A stretch of DNA of 64,000 bases from Bacteroidota bacterium. GTDB lineage: Bacteria; Bacteroidota; Ignavibacteria; Palsa-1295. A program made the position numbers and the translations under genes. Below are positions 3 to 49,104 of this stretch, in pieces. Position 1 is the stretch's first letter; each line of letters starts with the position of its first letter. Under the pieces are notes generated by a model. The model was given only the letters and a program-made list of their open reading frames with translations, ran no database searches and was not told the origin of the DNA. The stretch covers positions 1 through 64,000 of the forward strand of contig JAJPIO010000016.1 in assembly GCA_021324735.1 (NCBI GenBank), given 5' to 3'.

Positions 3-1361
3 ACCTCCGTTTCCGGCCCGACCCTCTTATTCGATACGACGACGCTCACGAACAAATACGATCCTGTCACGCTCGGAGGACAGCCGTATTCGTGGCTCAA
101 GTGGGCCAACTGGCCCGAAGATACTCTCATTCAAACGACGCGAACGACATTCAAACTGGTGGGGGAGTATTCCGATCGGTTTGTTCTGCCGGCTGATACC
201 ACGATATACTGCCGTGGCAGCAATGGAGCAATGTTGACATTCAAGGGCGCGCTGAAGACTGTCGTCCACGATACGCTTATTTCCACAAGCACCGACGCGT
301 GGGGTACAGTTGTGACCCGAACGCCGATCGTGGCCTACACCACCTTAGCCAATGGATATAAGTTGCGTACTCTGCAAACGAACATGGCACCGTTCCTTGG
401 CAGCGCGTATGACACCGTCGTGATCTCGAATGTATGCGATTTTCCGATCGAGCTGAAGAATCTCCAGTTTTACCAATACAGCGCGGATCCGGAAGATTAT
501 CGGGTTATGTCGGCTCCGAGCGTCATCGCTGCGCACGATAGCGGATACATCATCCTGCTCCTGAAAGACAACAATAAGGCAAAAGATACTTCGAATAACT
601 ACAAGACCGTCTATCTCTCAGGGGTGGTAGCACCATATCAATCGGACATGGCGTTCTCTGACAGTGTATTCCAGTGCGAGGTTTACGGAAAGATTGACAT
701 TTGGTGTCCCATTAACACGATCTACACCGACGAGACGGTCCCAAAGATCAAGCATGGCATTCATCCAACAGGGATTGTCTTCCCGTCGGATGTCAGCAGC
801 TTATTTACCGGGCCGAGGTCGTTCGAAATGCGATTTGGGAATTTCGATTCTGTTAGCGAGTATTTCTACCCGCCTTATTTCGATGATCCCCGCTTCCAGA
901 TCACACTCGGTAATTTTGATGGTCTCGGCACGTTGCCCGTGCCCGGACTAATACCACCCGCTCAGTATTCTTCCCAGATTTGCACTAAGATAAGCTACTC
1001 TGGAGATGATTACCATAATTACTTGACGCAATTGCATTGGCCTCGAGCGAAAGATACGGTGACGATCGATGTGATGGCTATTGGAGTTGATGCACCACCA
1101 TTCTCAAGTGTACAAGTGCCCCAGGCATCGAACGGTATTTCGATCTGGCCGAATCCAGCATCATCGGTGATTCACATTGGGCCGGAGGGGGAGGATGCAA
1201 GTTTCACCATCTATGATATCGTTGGCCGAGAAGTTTATTCCGGTGAAGTATTGTCGAACGAGACGTTCGATATTTCTACTCTTTCGCCAGGCTTTTATTC
1301 AGTCGTGCTAAGCTCAAGAACGAATCGCACAGTAATGCAAAAGCTTTCGATCGTTCGGTAG
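3..1361 (+). CDS. T9SS-exported surface protein, 5' end outside window
   Basis: Secreted protein with a C-terminal type IX secretion sorting domain, truncated by the left edge. The frame is open from base 3, far ahead of the first ATG at 159, and the residues encoded there align with the middle of the downstream paralogue (shared LFDT, TLTNK, DTLIQ and LVGEY blocks), so 159 is not the real start. The body resembles immunoglobulin-like beta domains and shows no catalytic motif. The last ~80 residues start at IWPNPASSVIHIGPEG and carry the IYDIVGREVYSGEV, LSPGFYSVVL and KLSIVR blocks of a type A T9SS signal. Family knowledge: such proteins pass Sec, then the outer membrane, and are usually surface-anchored. 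The cargo function is unknown. It is the upstream copy of a tandem pair, 44 bases before the next gene. Confidence 0.85.
   Translation, partial: TSVSGPTLLFDTTTLTNKYDPVTLGGQPYSWLKWANWPEDTLIQTTRTTFKLVGEYSDRFVLPADTTIYCRGSNGAMLTFKGALKTVVHDTLISTSTDAWGTVVTRTPIVAYTTLANGYKLRTLQTNMAPFLGSAYDTVVISNVCDFPIELKNLQFYQYSADPEDYRVMSAPSVIAAHDSGYIILLLKDNNKAKDTSNNYKTVYLSGVVAPYQSDMAFSDSVFQCEVYGKIDIWCPINTIYTDETVPKIKHGIHPTGIVFPSDVSSLFTGPRSFEMRFGNFDSVSEYFYPPYFDDPRFQITLGNFDGLGTLPVPGLIPPAQYSSQICTKISYSGDDYHNYLTQLHWPRAKDTVTIDVMAIGVDAPPFSSVQVPQASNGISIWPNPASSVIHIGPEGEDASFTIYDIVGREVYSGEVLSNETFDISTLSPGFYSVVLSSRTNRTVMQKLSIVR
1142..1322 (+). repeat. Homogenised sorting-domain repeat, copy A
   Basis: By eye, this 181-base stretch differs at only two positions from 3253-3433. 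It covers most of the T9SS sorting domain of the first paralogue. Flanking parts of the two genes are much less alike, although a second block nearby (from 1032 and from 3143) is also nearly identical. The pattern suggests recent gene conversion or recombination between the tandem copies. Confidence 0.85.
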
Positions 1362-1405
1362 GACGGGGATGTTTTGATTTCCGTAAAACTTAGAAAATTA
1401 CTGCG

Positions 1406-3472
1406 ATGACTAAGATAATGTCCCTTGTGCTCTTACTTACTCTCATCTTCACGAGTGATGCATCGGCGCAGGTTATTAAACTCACTACTGATACCACGCT
1501 CTTTACGATACATCAGGAATCCATCCCCGCAGCTGCCGATTCGGGCGGGAGGTGGATCCCTGTCAATATTGTAGTCACCAGTCATAGCGATTATCCGATC
1601 CATATTCCCGGGTTTTCCACACATGTCCGAGATTATCTCAATCCTGGGTGTGCTCCATTTCGACGAGTCAAACTCGCCGATTCTGCCTGGTCGTATGCCG
1701 ATTCGATTTTCATCGGGGAAGATGTTCTGATCGGTAACACCATGGAACTTGGCTGGCCCGTGGCGCATAGCGCGCCATGGAAGTATAAGGACTCCGTGAT
1801 GGCCCTATGGCGGACGCAAGTGGACACAGAAGGTCACTCTATAGTAACCATCGACGGAAATGCATATCATGGATCGGCCGTGCTCGAGTATGTCGTACCC
1901 CCGCACGGGACAGTCCGAGTGCCCTATCTGGTCCAATCGATCGGCGATGAAAACACGCATCAGTTAGATGTTGCACCGCTTATATTCGATATTCAGATGC
2001 GGAAAGGTATCGAATACTGGTTCAGCGATAGTGCGGGTATCCGAAGAATGGGAGACAGCGGTGAGTACGAGCTACAGCCGTATCCCTATTGGCTAAGCGT
2101 CCTCGTACCGGCGACGTGCTCTGCCCCCGCCAGATTGTTCGATACTGCAACGCTCACGAACAAAACTAATTCAGTTGTACTCGGCAGCGGAACATCATTT
2201 AGCTGGTCCAAATGGACCACCTCGAACTACGATACTCTCATTCAAAGAACGAATGTGTCGTTCAGACTCGTAGGCGAATACGCCGATCGGTTCGACCTGC
2301 CTGCGGACGTCATTCTTGATTGCGGACCAATGAGTGGGGGAACGTTGAGATTTAATGGCGCTCCGAAACCCATAGTCCACGATACACTTATTGCCACCAG
2401 CATCAATTGCTGGGGGAGCGTAGTCACACGGACTCCGATCGAAGCCTATTCCACCATCAAAAATGGATACAAGGTGCGTGCGCTTCAAACCAATACGGTA
2501 CCATTCCTAGGCAGCACGTACGATACCCTTGTGCTTTCGAACGTTTCCGATTTTTCAATCGAACTCAAGGATCTTCAGCTTTACAAATTCAGCAATGATC
2601 CGGAAAGCTTTCAATTTGTGTCCTCTCCGAGCGTCATCGCGGCACACGACAGCGGTTACATCGTTTTGCTCCTAACGGATAACAATAATGCGAAAGATAC
2701 CGCGAACGACTATCGAAGCGCATACGTCACAGGGGTGGTGACTCCCTATCAGGTAGACATGGCATTCTCCGATAGCGTGATACTTGCCCAAGTTAGCGGG
2801 AAAGTCGACGTCTTTTGCCCAGTCAATACAATCTATACTGGAGAAAAACCTCCGAAGCTCCAACACGGCATTCATCCGACAGGGATAATCTTCCCTTCGG
2901 ATGTTACAAGTACAATCACCGGACCGAGATCTTTCGAGGTACGATTTGGTAATTTCGATTCTGTAAGTGAGTATTTCTATCTTCCATATTTTGACGATCC
3001 TCGCTTCCAGATCACCTTGGGTAATTGGGATGGTTTCGGAACGCTCCCGGTGCCAGGGTCAATATCGCCCGCTCAGTTCTCTTCACAAATTTGTGCGAAG
3101 ATAAGCTACACCGGCGACGATAATCATAATTACCTCACCCAGTTGCATTGGCCTCGAGCGAAAGATACGGTGACGATCGATGTGATGGCTATCGGAGTTG
3201 ATGCGCCGCCATTCTCAGGTGTCGCAGTACAATCAAGCTCAAGCGCTTTTTTGATCTGGCCGAATCCAGCATCATCGGTGATTCACATTGGGGCGGAGGG
3301 GGAGGATGCAAGTTTCACCATCTATGATATCGTTGGCCGAGAAGTTTATTCCGGTGAAGTATTGTCGAACGAGACGTTCGATATTTCTACTCTCTCGCCA
3401 GGCTTTTATTCAGTCGTGCTAAGCTCAAGAACGGATCACCCCATAACAGAAAAGCTTTCGATTGTTCGGTAA
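1406..3472 (+). CDS. T9SS-exported surface protein, tandem paralogue
   Basis: 688-residue secreted protein, a full-length paralogue of the gene just upstream. It has a Sec signal peptide (basic MTK start, hydrophobic core LVLLLTLIFT, likely cleavage after SDASA). A long all-beta body without recognisable enzymatic motifs follows, then a C-terminal type A T9SS sorting domain from LIWPNPASSVIHIGAEG to KLSIVR. Residues from about 235 align through the whole visible part of the first copy, with clear divergence in the body and near identity in the sorting domain. The ATG at 1406 is well placed for the signal peptide. The role is unknown; cell-surface adhesion or structure is a guess from the architecture. 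Confidence 0.88.
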   Translation: MTKIMSLVLLLTLIFTSDASAQVIKLTTDTTLFTIHQESIPAAADSGGRWIPVNIVVTSHSDYPIHIPGFSTHVRDYLNPGCAPFRRVKLADSAWSYADSIFIGEDVLIGNTMELGWPVAHSAPWKYKDSVMALWRTQVDTEGHSIVTIDGNAYHGSAVLEYVVPPHGTVRVPYLVQSIGDENTHQLDVAPLIFDIQMRKGIEYWFSDSAGIRRMGDSGEYELQPYPYWLSVLVPATCSAPARLFDTATLTNKTNSVVLGSGTSFSWSKWTTSNYDTLIQRTNVSFRLVGEYADRFDLPADVILDCGPMSGGTLRFNGAPKPIVHDTLIATSINCWGSVVTRTPIEAYSTIKNGYKVRALQTNTVPFLGSTYDTLVLSNVSDFSIELKDLQLYKFSNDPESFQFVSSPSVIAAHDSGYIVLLLTDNNNAKDTANDYRSAYVTGVVTPYQVDMAFSDSVILAQVSGKVDVFCPVNTIYTGEKPPKLQHGIHPTGIIFPSDVTSTITGPRSFEVRFGNFDSVSEYFYLPYFDDPRFQITLGNWDGFGTLPVPGSISPAQFSSQICAKISYTGDDNHNYLTQLHWPRAKDTVTIDVMAIGVDAPPFSGVAVQSSSSAFLIWPNPASSVIHIGAEGEDASFTIYDIVGREVYSGEVLSNETFDISTLSPGFYSVVLSSRTDHPITEKLSIVR
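3253..3433 (+). repeat. Homogenised sorting-domain repeat, copy B
   Basis: Second copy of the 181-base tract at 1142-1322 (two mismatches seen by eye), offset by 2111 bases. It encodes the sorting domain of the second paralogue. Identity ends sharply, after the codons for LSSRT, a few codons before the stop. Confidence 0.85.
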
Positions 3473-46306: not shown

Positions 46307-48706
46307 CTACCTGCGATATTGTATCCCGGCGCGGATTCCAAATGAGGTAAGATGCCAGTTCAGATCTTTCACAGCATCGAAAAATGGCAAATTCATGTAG
46401 GCTCCAGCTAACAGTGATATCTGCTGACTGAGCTTAAATTGGAATCCCGGTGATAATTCCAGTGCGATATGGAATGTTGTCGGACTTGGCAATGAACCCG
46501 AAGCAATATTATGATCTCTGGAGCCGGTAGAGCGTCCAGTTGAATCTGTAAGCGTAGTGGGAAAGACGATCTCGCGCGATTCACTATAGGTCCCGGATAT
46601 CAGGAAGCCGGCGGCAAGGCCGGTGTATACATAAAAATGCTCCGGTATCGGATAGTAATAGACACCACCATTTACGGTGAGATAGCTCAGTGATGCTTCG
46701 GTAGTAAAATTCTCGATAAGCTTTGAAAGGCGAGAACCAGCCGTATCTCCATATTGAATGGAATCGGGTACAAATGTGGAATGCGTTGCGATCGCCGCTC
46801 CAGTAAAATTCGAATATCCTATACCAGCCGCGAGTTGTATCGATTTATCGATCGGATAAATATACATTCCCTGGAATCCACCGCTTAATCGCGTTGAGAA
46901 TTGATCGAAGGTGGCAGGCGACTGTAAATACGTCGGTGGTTCAAACGCGACATCCGAAACAGTAAGTGAGGGCGTGGTAATAAATTGGACGGTCCATTCA
47001 CGGCACGTCGGGCAGATATTCTCCCGACTCTCATTCATTGTGTAGAGCCAGTGAGCACCGTTGAACGTCCGACAAACGACCCAATAGGACTCGTTGCCGG
47101 CAGCGTCAGTCAACTTAAGGCTCATAAATCCACACGAGCCGGTATCGCGAATGCGGAAAAGCAGCGGCACTTCCGGGGCGCCTACATCGAACTTCGGTAC
47201 ACTGACCGGCGACCGAAAATTTTGACTATCGATAACAGTAATAGAGGCCATTCCTGCATCGAATAACCGGTCGTCTCGAGCTATAAGAGCGAGCGGAAGG
47301 GAAGCATCCTCGGATTCCAGTTCGAGAAGCGGTCGTGCAGTATCACGAACTGCTGGCACTGTCTCGACCAACTGTCCACCTTCATTGCCATAGGAATCGT
47401 AGTCATCGCTGCCTACGCCAAATCCGTAGGAGTATAGACCGAACGGTTTATCGCAGGAGACCGCATGCGATCCAAATCCGATCTCATATTGTGCAATACC
47501 ATACCGCGAGATACCGATCTTCTTAAAATACCGGAGCGGTACGGTACGTCCATCGACGCGCAAAGAGCCTTCCGCATCGAGTGGCACAACCAGATTGATA
47601 TAATGATGCCAATCGCCATTTACCGGTGTAGCAAAGCGGTAGTAATTCAGAAATTGCTCCGTCGGAACGATGAGCATCATAAACGGATCGCCAACTTTGA
47701 TACTGTCGGCATCCGAGCCCTGCGCATATTCTGCGACCAACACCGGCGCCGATGCAGTGACGAACGAGTTATCGACCATGTGATCGTTGCCGTAGAAGTC
47801 TCCGGCTCGTAATTTAGCGACAAGCTTATTATTGACGAAGACTTCAGTGTTGTCCTCACTCGCCATAACCCTCATGGCATATTCTGTTTTACTCTCGAGC
47901 CGTCCTACATAAAACTGTCGCCCCCAGCTTGGAATAGGGGGCTCCATTTCCAGCAGTTGATCACAGAAGGAAACGCTGGTCGGTACCTGAGCACACGAAT
48001 GTCCGACAAAAAAACTGATCGGCTTGGTCGAGGTAATAAGTGATCCCGTGAGGTCGCCAGGGCGATCCGGATTACCCGTACCGTGTACAAAGTAGGCATC
48101 CCCTTGATTAAGCTCGACAGAAAACGTCTCGCCTTTACGGTGTCCGCCGCGCGTATCACCTTTTAGCGAAATGGTGACAACGGTATGATCGGAAGTCCCC
48201 ACGATCGCAAATTCTGTCGCAAAACTGGTCGGACCGTTTTGAAGCGAGTTATAACCCAGGGCCCTGTAGGTGGTACCTAATACTTTGACCGGTAATCCAA
48301 GATAGGTGTCAGTGCTCGCCGGACGGTGTGAGAGGCCAAAAACTGCAACATCATTATCAGCCACCACATGAACTCCGAGATGGGATACGGTCTCGCTGGT
48401 GAGTAATTCAATATCGGTATCGAGATTGATCTCTTTGATCTCGGAAGCTTTAAGGTCGAACGGTATTTGTTCTCCGAGACCGGGCACGGATACCACACCA
48501 TGCGTTGCACGGTCGCTCGTAATGAATAGCTTCAGGCTTAACGTCTTGTTACCCTCGATCACGGCATTCTGCGGAAACGCAAGCCAGAATTCTTTACCGC
48601 GAGAATCTTCCAAAGTTGTCGAACCATCCTGAGCGTACACACTCATACTCCAAAGCACGGAGAGCGCTGAGATCAGAAAAAGGAATATGGTCCGATTATG
48701 CTGCAT
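46307..48706 (-). CDS. Secreted IgGFc-binding-like protein with C-terminal beta-barrel
   Basis: 799-residue exported protein. Signal peptide with core TIFLFLISALSVLW and cleavage near VYAQ. The first ~420 residues resemble the IgGFc-binding N-terminal domain found in many bacterial surface proteins: SRGKEFWLAFPQNAVIEG, VHVVADNDVAVFGLSHRPAS, GYNSLQNGPTSFATEFAIVG and FFVGHSCAQVPTSVSFCDQL. A middle Ig-like region with paired cysteines (SCGF, ICPTC) follows. The last ~200 residues alternate as an outer-membrane barrel (GGFQGMYIYPIDKSIQLAAG, YYYPIPEHFYVYTGLAAGF, LSPGFQFKLSQQISLLAG). The start is taken at ATG 48706, overlapping the upstream stop as TGATG; a TTG lies one codon before. It therefore appears translationally coupled to the sorting-domain-only gene. 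Confidence 0.83.
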   Translation of the reverse strand: MQHNRTIFLFLISALSVLWSMSVYAQDGSTTLEDSRGKEFWLAFPQNAVIEGNKTLSLKLFITSDRATHGVVSVPGLGEQIPFDLKASEIKEINLDTDIELLTSETVSHLGVHVVADNDVAVFGLSHRPASTDTYLGLPVKVLGTTYRALGYNSLQNGPTSFATEFAIVGTSDHTVVTISLKGDTRGGHRKGETFSVELNQGDAYFVHGTGNPDRPGDLTGSLITSTKPISFFVGHSCAQVPTSVSFCDQLLEMEPPIPSWGRQFYVGRLESKTEYAMRVMASEDNTEVFVNNKLVAKLRAGDFYGNDHMVDNSFVTASAPVLVAEYAQGSDADSIKVGDPFMMLIVPTEQFLNYYRFATPVNGDWHHYINLVVPLDAEGSLRVDGRTVPLRYFKKIGISRYGIAQYEIGFGSHAVSCDKPFGLYSYGFGVGSDDYDSYGNEGGQLVETVPAVRDTARPLLELESEDASLPLALIARDDRLFDAGMASITVIDSQNFRSPVSVPKFDVGAPEVPLLFRIRDTGSCGFMSLKLTDAAGNESYWVVCRTFNGAHWLYTMNESRENICPTCREWTVQFITTPSLTVSDVAFEPPTYLQSPATFDQFSTRLSGGFQGMYIYPIDKSIQLAAGIGYSNFTGAAIATHSTFVPDSIQYGDTAGSRLSKLIENFTTEASLSYLTVNGGVYYYPIPEHFYVYTGLAAGFLISGTYSESREIVFPTTLTDSTGRSTGSRDHNIASGSLPSPTTFHIALELSPGFQFKLSQQISLLAGAYMNLPFFDAVKDLNWHLTSFGIRAGIQYRR

Positions 48707-49104
48707 CAATGTATGATCGAGAATCGCATGTAGTCGACAACATTTGTAGCGCCGGAGGCCGTATACGTTATTAATTGGACCATGTACGCGCCGGACGGCA
48801 ATGTAAAGGGCGGAATAATAAAGTTATGCAAGCCCGCAGGGGTTGATTGCTTAGCTTGCAATACATAAATATCCCTGCCAGCCGAATCGAAGACGCGGCA
48901 TTCGAATACTTCGTCTGTGTGGGTATAGACCTGAACCGTAATAGCCTGATTCGCTCGAGCAGGAGATGGATAGGCGCTCACCAAATACGAACCCCATCGC
49001 GGCCGGAGATGCCCGATGATGCTCGAATCCTGCGAACCCGCGCCCGACTGGGCAAGGGCCGGCATAGCTACGACGAGAAGTAAAATAACGAAAAGTGCGC
49101 GCAC
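48706..49104 (-). CDS. Short secreted protein made almost only of a T9SS-like C-terminal domain
   Basis: 132-residue exported protein. Signal peptide MRALFVILLLVVAMPALAQ, a linker of about 20 residues, then about 90 residues that match a T9SS sorting domain in layout: VSAYPSPARANQAITVQVY, CRVFDSAGRDIYVLQAK, LPSGAYMVQLITY and a final beta strand MRFSIIH. No cargo domain lies between the signal peptide and this region. The start is GTG at 49104. Its TGA overlaps the ATG of the IgGFc/barrel gene (TGATG). It may be a carrier, plug or adaptor for its neighbour, or a reduced cargo protein. Confidence 0.78.
   Translation of the reverse strand: MRALFVILLLVVAMPALAQSGAGSQDSSIIGHLRPRWGSYLVSAYPSPARANQAITVQVYTHTDEVFECRVFDSAGRDIYVLQAKQSTPAGLHNFIIPPFTLPSGAYMVQLITYTASGATNVVDYMRFSIIH

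Follow-up and report, generated by a model that had tools for sequence, protein, structure and literature searches.

We analysed a 64,000-nucleotide stretch of DNA (the window), in which a short gene, whose product amounts to a signal peptide and a type A-like sorting domain (CTD) of the type IX secretion system (T9SS), overlaps the gene of a large protein in which an IgGFc_binding domain is followed by a C-terminal barrel; genome comparisons indicate that this pair is conserved and lineage-wide in Kapabacteria, an uncultured group for which most knowledge comes from metagenomes. Our preferred reading, to which we give a probability of roughly 0.4, is that the two proteins may constitute a dedicated CTD/barrel module working like SprB-SprF or PG1035-PorP, with both the interaction of the proteins and the secretion of the small one being putative. 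The likeness would be one of working principle and not of membership, since gene order and logic are shared but CTD type, barrel fold and profiles differ.

Both genes lie on the minus strand and proved intact, with the domains that the preliminary description had assigned to them (open reading frames, TIGR04183, PF17517 and structure model). The short gene (48706..49104) encodes 132 aa from a GTG start: a signal peptide (MRALFVILLLVVAMPALA, followed by QSG; 49051..49104), placed by the sequence, by a helix at residues 3-12 of the model and by the aligned N-termini of orthologues; a linker of ~17 residues (QSGAGSQDSSIIGHLRPR); and a type A CTD of seven beta-strands (TIGR04183; residues 36-132; 48709..48999), delimited by the model, an alignment of 48 sequences and fold matches. 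The large gene (46307..48706) encodes 799 aa from its ATG, the open reading frame from TTG being one codon longer (800 aa), and comprises a signal peptide, the IgGFc_binding domain, an Ig-like region and an OmpA-like barrel (PF17517, model). At the TGATG junction (48704..48708), which reads CATTGATGCAG, the TGA stop of the former and the ATG start of the latter share one base, an overlap compatible with translational coupling. Junctions measured in 63 homologous pairs overlapped in 35, fell at 0-20 nt in 23 and were further apart in five, i.e. 58/63 overlapped or lay within 0-20 nt, and a scan for promoters and terminators gave signals no more frequent than chance. Within the linker region, the segment at 48997-49014 (QDS...LRPR, then W or R, then tyrosine) is strongly kept in the family of the window (f1), its conservation there exceeding the expectation for a plain linker.

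The IgGFc_binding domain of the large protein (residues 133-428; 47423..48310) matched the whole of PF17517 (profile positions 1-297 of 297; E = 1.2e-69; 235.3 bits against a gathering threshold of 25.6). It is preceded by an N-terminal beta domain (residues 34-141; 48284..48607) that resembles Thermotoga maritima TM1070 (1nc7; Z 9.8, rmsd 4.0, 103 residues, VIA-align), a resemblance that may bear on the IgGFc_binding family at large, and followed by the Ig-like region (residues 446-560; 47027..47371), defined by model strands and conserved in the alignment. The IgGFc part had no solved relative by sequence (best E = 1.1), and the whole-model fold search was dominated by the barrel. In the AlphaFold2 model (mean pLDDT 79.9), that barrel (residues 566-799; 46310..47011) is of the eight-stranded OmpA-like outer-membrane fold, with OmpA (Z 15.9, 170 residues), NspA (15.3) and OprF (15.2) as fold matches; its strands span residues 570-798, tight turns occur at 618-623, 687-691 and 758-763, and the remaining strand connections are long. 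The last residue is usually aromatic or hydrophobic in relatives, but R, H or N in f1.

Folds and topology being predictions here, the model places the N-terminal ~540 residues, including the IgGFc region, in the periplasm and not outside the cell, because the barrel that they join N-terminally is OmpA-like, is oriented by its tight turns and long loops, and would have a periplasmic C-terminus as OmpA does. The term ectodomain, previously used for the IgGFc region, therefore does not fit this topology. Just N-terminal of the first barrel strand, and thus on the predicted periplasmic side, lie Cys545 and Cys565 (47012..47074), with cysteine at both positions (545 +/- 2 for the former) in 74/74 homologues; they may form an internal disulfide. 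An extra cysteine in the f1 large proteins (47012-47023) creates a C-P-x-C motif at residues 562-565; outside f1, the first cysteine of this motif is usually missing and the second one kept.

TIGR04183 recognised residues 45-113 of the 132-residue short protein with 26.0 bits (cut-off 23, NCBIfam profile search); PF18962 reached 19.5 bits, under the Pfam cut-off of 27, and several orthologues scored near or under the TIGR04183 cut-off (17.9, 20.1, 21.1 and 22.9 bits), two being without detection. The AlphaFold2 model of the CTD is a seven-stranded beta-sandwich (pLDDT ~97), and type A CTDs have been described as seven-stranded (PMC12618676). Structural search retrieved the CTDs of PorU (Z 10.1) and PorZ (Z 9.0), with an alpha-2-macroglobulin MG domain as top match (Z 11.1) and other Ig-like folds matching equally well as or better than the two CTDs. 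Among 48 aligned CTD sequences conservation is highest at the type A hallmarks P-x-P, G and G-x-Y (P46, P48, G91, G105 and Y107, each at least 90% conserved), and a profile of the partner CTDs picked up ordinary cargo CTDs of the same genome with E down to ~1e-17. Sequence and model thus support, but not strongly, that the short protein belongs to the T9SS type A CTDs, because the HMM match is marginal and alpha-2-macroglobulin domains match the model equally well or better; as a working secretion signal the CTD is putative.

This CTD sits in a genome that is rich in T9SS cargo, as judged from at least 150 TIGR04183 matches together with SprA, PorU and four PorV-family loci over cut-off. The PorV-family matches lie at loci other than the large gene, and neither the PorV profile NF033709 nor the PorP/SprF profile TIGR03519 matched the large protein, just as the type B CTD profile TIGR04131 did not match the short one (NCBIfam, E <= 10 in each case); membership of the pair in the PorP/SprF, PorV or type B CTD families was rejected for want of a profile match. 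A search of the genome with TIGR03519, in a run in which no control matched either, gave no match. The IgGFc domain has many paralogues in these genomes. Elsewhere in the window, at 159-3472, two tandem CTD-bearing proteins have near-identical C-termini, apparently from a recent duplication.

The pairing was not restricted to the window. The large gene and a short CTD gene were adjacent in 12/12 testable f1 genomes, a thirteenth being cut by a contig end. A scan of 84,980 species (one genome per species, with the large-protein alignment as query) returned 79 loci, titled mostly Kapaibacterium, Ignavibacteria or Bacteroidetes, and homologous pairs were present at 65 of the 77 that were scorable after exclusion of two contig edges; 63 upstream CTD genes were scored automatically, and two loci were added, one with a start-codon artefact (L092) and one in which the partner precedes the first of two IgGFc genes (L137). 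Conservation of the pair, on which the preliminary description had made its idea depend, is thereby confirmed. When 296 genomes were drawn evenly from the phylum, only those of this class gave matches that extended to the barrel. Within f1 the pair stays together in changing neighbourhoods, with aspS upstream in some genomes and other genes elsewhere, and no regulatory gene was conserved beside it in the neighbourhoods compared.

Several individual loci deserve mention. Three, titled Bradyrhizobiaceae (L127), Desulfobulbaceae (L120) and Armatimonadetes (L114), branch among Kapabacteria in the tree of the large protein and are probably mislabelled metagenome bins. At L076 (4318-11102; family f14) a gene for a ~650-aa lipoprotein lies upstream of the pair and one for a heme-exporter-like membrane protein (CcmB-like, by eye) downstream, an order shared by G046 and G055. 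A barrel-gene match in another genome (G144:C1:40009-42375) is full-length except for one TAA, which may stem from mis-sequencing or mean that the copy is broken.

Outside f1 and the family f4, the partner typically has 245-290 aa and carries a cohesin-like domain between signal peptide and CTD. The family profile of this N-domain matched the CipA cohesin 2ccl (E = 2.6e-5), and no single partner member tested reached Pfam cohesin; mean identity was 25% for the CTD vs 19% for the N-domain. The f1 partner is the CTD without the cohesin-like domain, and an apparent second short form (L161) sits on a long branch within the long-form part of the tree, while L093 is short only through an assembly gap. 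Since the tree was midpoint-rooted between f1 and the cohesin-carrying groups, it accommodates loss in f1 or gain elsewhere. The term cargo-less thus holds for f1 and apparently L161 but not for most relatives: because the partner outside f1 and f4 usually has the cohesin-like domain, absence of cargo is a trait of particular lineages, and what stays constant is the sorting domain. For the same reason, gating of the translocon by a free sorting domain would not be the general principle. The earlier suggestion that such a domain could occupy, gate or prime a translocon found no support here.

A full-length barrel protein was present in 41/149 genomes of the class, all in eight families, and its gene is core and essentially single-copy in full-length form in its lineage. 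Eleven of these 41 genomes belong to f1 and carry the short partner; all 25 barrel genomes outside f1 and f4 have a partner as well (23 adjacent, two unlinked), with 24 of the 25 long partners at or about E < 1e-43 and the remaining one (G152, 1.6e-27) adjoining the barrel gene. Strong partner matches occurred in 0/108 barrel-less genomes, none surpassing 1.2e-28, near to what ordinary cohesin-plus-CTD proteins score. In the two unlinked cases (G309, G317) the partner is kept at about 1e-50. In two of the five f4 genomes the partner is in place, with 175-229 aa, and in one of them (G052) an IgGFc gene intervenes; in the other three (G015, G025, G043) the barrel protein was found with no partner identified and none adjacent, and G025 and G043 have full-length partner candidates elsewhere with scores barely above background. 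In family f22, the long partner stands alone, far from the barrel gene (L174 1300-2247, L175 1420-2274), and the large protein is longer (about 860-1050 aa by first start codon). Part of the co-occurrence within one clade is due to common descent, and for that reason the genome counts are not independent events; stronger points than the counts are that the partner is kept where unlinked and that the pair persists while its neighbours change. Divergence of the CTD tracked that of the barrel with the IgGFc domain controlled for (0.32 vs 0.06), a weak correlation probably affected by saturation.

The closest known arrangements are those in which type B CTD genes lie directly upstream of a PorP/SprF barrel that shuttles and anchors the product (PMC12618676, PMC9143113), as SprF carries and anchors SprB (PMC9143113, PMC12618676, PMC12635249). 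SprB-SprF and PG1035-PorP resemble the present pair in joining a CTD protein to its own barrel, with the barrel gene commonly directly downstream, and differ in having a type B CTD where the pair has a type A-like one; unlike PorP/SprF barrels, the barrel here has an eight-stranded OmpA-like fold, a predicted periplasmic arm of ~540 residues and no TIGR03519 match. Type A CTDs have been described as using PorV (PMC12618676). The IgGFc_binding cargo of the T9SS has the same IgGFc domain with a CTD in cis and without a barrel, whereas the large protein has the barrel in place of the CTD, which is encoded next door. In two genomes (G012, L072 2625-4742; G008, L068 7177-9171) the two genes of the pair are separated by one for an IgGFc protein of 660-705 aa that itself bears a CTD, a natural cis version of the trans arrangement of the pair. 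Consistently with the preliminary description, which knew of no system with this pairing, the open-access literature (most subscription journals being outside it) yielded no report joining IgGFc to type IX secretion, and a single paper that mentions Kapabacteria together with the T9SS; an eight-stranded OmpA-like CTD shuttle was likewise not found in the literature consulted.

Gene order, conservation, co-occurrence and domain content, as read from the genomes, are the basis of the module that we propose. Both proteins would be made together from their overlapping genes and enter the periplasm via their signal peptides; the large one would be inserted in the outer membrane through its OmpA-like barrel, its IgGFc/Ig-like arm lying in the periplasm, and the small one would be routed by its type A-like CTD to or through the SprA translocon, after which the large protein may hold it at the outer membrane as a dedicated anchor or shuttle. 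The CTD would be the constant part and the cohesin-like domain the usual passenger, f1 having the CTD alone. We infer, in this scheme, that the CTD protein binds the barrel protein, is exported through SprA and becomes exposed at the surface. The idea of the sorting domain as a detachable anchor for the barrel-linked region does not stand as worded; it survives in another form, with the barrel as possible anchor or shuttle of the CTD protein. Conservation of the pair, also in different neighbourhoods, co-occurrence, unlinked retention and the keeping of the CTD without its N-domain in f1 and L161 argue for such an anchor, as do the recognition of ordinary cargo CTDs by the partner profile, the presence of SprA, PorV and PorU, the type B precedent and, weakly, the parallel divergence of CTD and barrel. 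Counting against it are the described use of PorV by type A CTDs and the presence of PorV with a barrel that is neither of PorV nor of PorP/SprF type, the three f4 genomes out of five in which no partner was identified, the marginal CTD HMM match, the slightly better fit of an alpha-2-macroglobulin domain and a barrel whose conservation is not concentrated extracellularly (no conserved extracellular patch for CTD binding was found; 1.55 vs 1.77 bits).

A bolder version, which we regard as quite unlikely, would make the large protein a third T9SS shuttle or anchor, of OmpA fold, unrelated to PorV or PorP/SprF and dedicated to one type A-like CTD, whose IgGFc arm and cysteines could couple it to a T9SS hub as SprF and PorG are coupled to GldK. 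Because SprF and PorG bond to GldK through twin cysteines (PMC12635249), a coupling role of Cys545/Cys565 is conceivable, if speculative. SprF has its twin cysteines on the periplasmic side, and the large protein has two conserved ones just before the barrel; those of SprF form a C-x-C in the C-terminal tail, whereas those described here are ~20 residues apart and N-terminal of the barrel.

Small CTD proteins are already known, and what PMC7712824 says of them bears on the alternatives. PorA (PGN_0123) of Porphyromonas gingivalis, with 246 aa, acts there on T9SS gene expression and combines a signal peptide, one Ig-like domain and a type A CTD, a plan comparable to that of the long partner; its N-domain is FimH-like and that of the long partner cohesin-like, and the short protein of the window, unlike PorA, has no N-domain. 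The parts of that source consulted mention no cognate IgGFc-barrel protein for PorA, and homologues are reported there only in Porphyromonas. Fjoh_0547 of Flavobacterium johnsoniae, a 112-aa CTD protein that it cites, is nearly cargo-less like the short protein, and its secretion is reported there for sprA and porV mutants. PorU and PorZ, which that text gives as T9SS components keeping their CTDs, are fold matches of the short protein but are large, with other domains, and nothing suggests that the short protein belongs to the translocon or the sortase.

Could the short gene simply be what is left of a decaying gene for ordinary T9SS cargo, a truncated remnant of the kind that the preliminary description had named as fatal to its proposal? 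The absence of a passenger domain present in most relatives would favour this, but in 12 f1 genomes the gene is intact, encodes a signal peptide of its own and always adjoins the barrel gene, and change across its codon positions (0.37/0.28/0.63) is least at position 2 and most at position 3, with dN/dS of about 0.16-0.21 where dS could be estimated. These substitution patterns indicate that it is under purifying selection, which together with its conservation practically rules the remnant out. The main rival of the anchor model is a periplasmic pair in which the Ig-like domain of the short protein has left secretion and binds the IgGFc/Ig-like arm, its CTD likeness being ancestry. The predicted periplasmic position of that arm, TIGR04183 scores near or below cut-off in several orthologues and the alpha-2-macroglobulin MG domain as best fold match (Z 11.1) all suit it, and we consider it somewhat unlikely given that the window protein is over the TIGR04183 cut-off, that P-x-P, G and G-x-Y are the most conserved positions of the 48 sequences, and that the partner profile strongly recognises ordinary cargo CTDs.

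Overlapping genes are common in operons, and the two products might be co-transcribed envelope proteins without physical contact, linked by shared regulation only; we judge this unlikely, as the linkage persists over deep divergence and in different neighbourhoods, and co-occurrence extends to genomes that retain the partner even when unlinked. Very doubtful, finally, is a T9SS accessory or sensor comparable to PorA, in which the small protein would report on or tune secretion and the large one relay a signal across the outer membrane. The small signal peptide, Ig-like and type A CTD plan of PorA with its effect on T9SS expression (PMC7712824), the core and essentially single-copy status of the barrel protein and the PorU and PorZ CTDs among the fold matches speak for it; the lack of a conserved regulatory gene beside the pair, the reporting of PorA homologues only from Porphyromonas and the FimH-like and not cohesin-like N-domain of PorA speak against it.

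If the module works as we propose, a type A-like CTD would have a barrel dedicated to it, as has until now been the rule described for type B domains, and an OmpA-type barrel would have been recruited as that partner. An IgGFc_binding protein would moreover gain a defined periplasmic-side role at the bacterial outer membrane, and a core, lineage-defining envelope module of Kapabacteria would be named.
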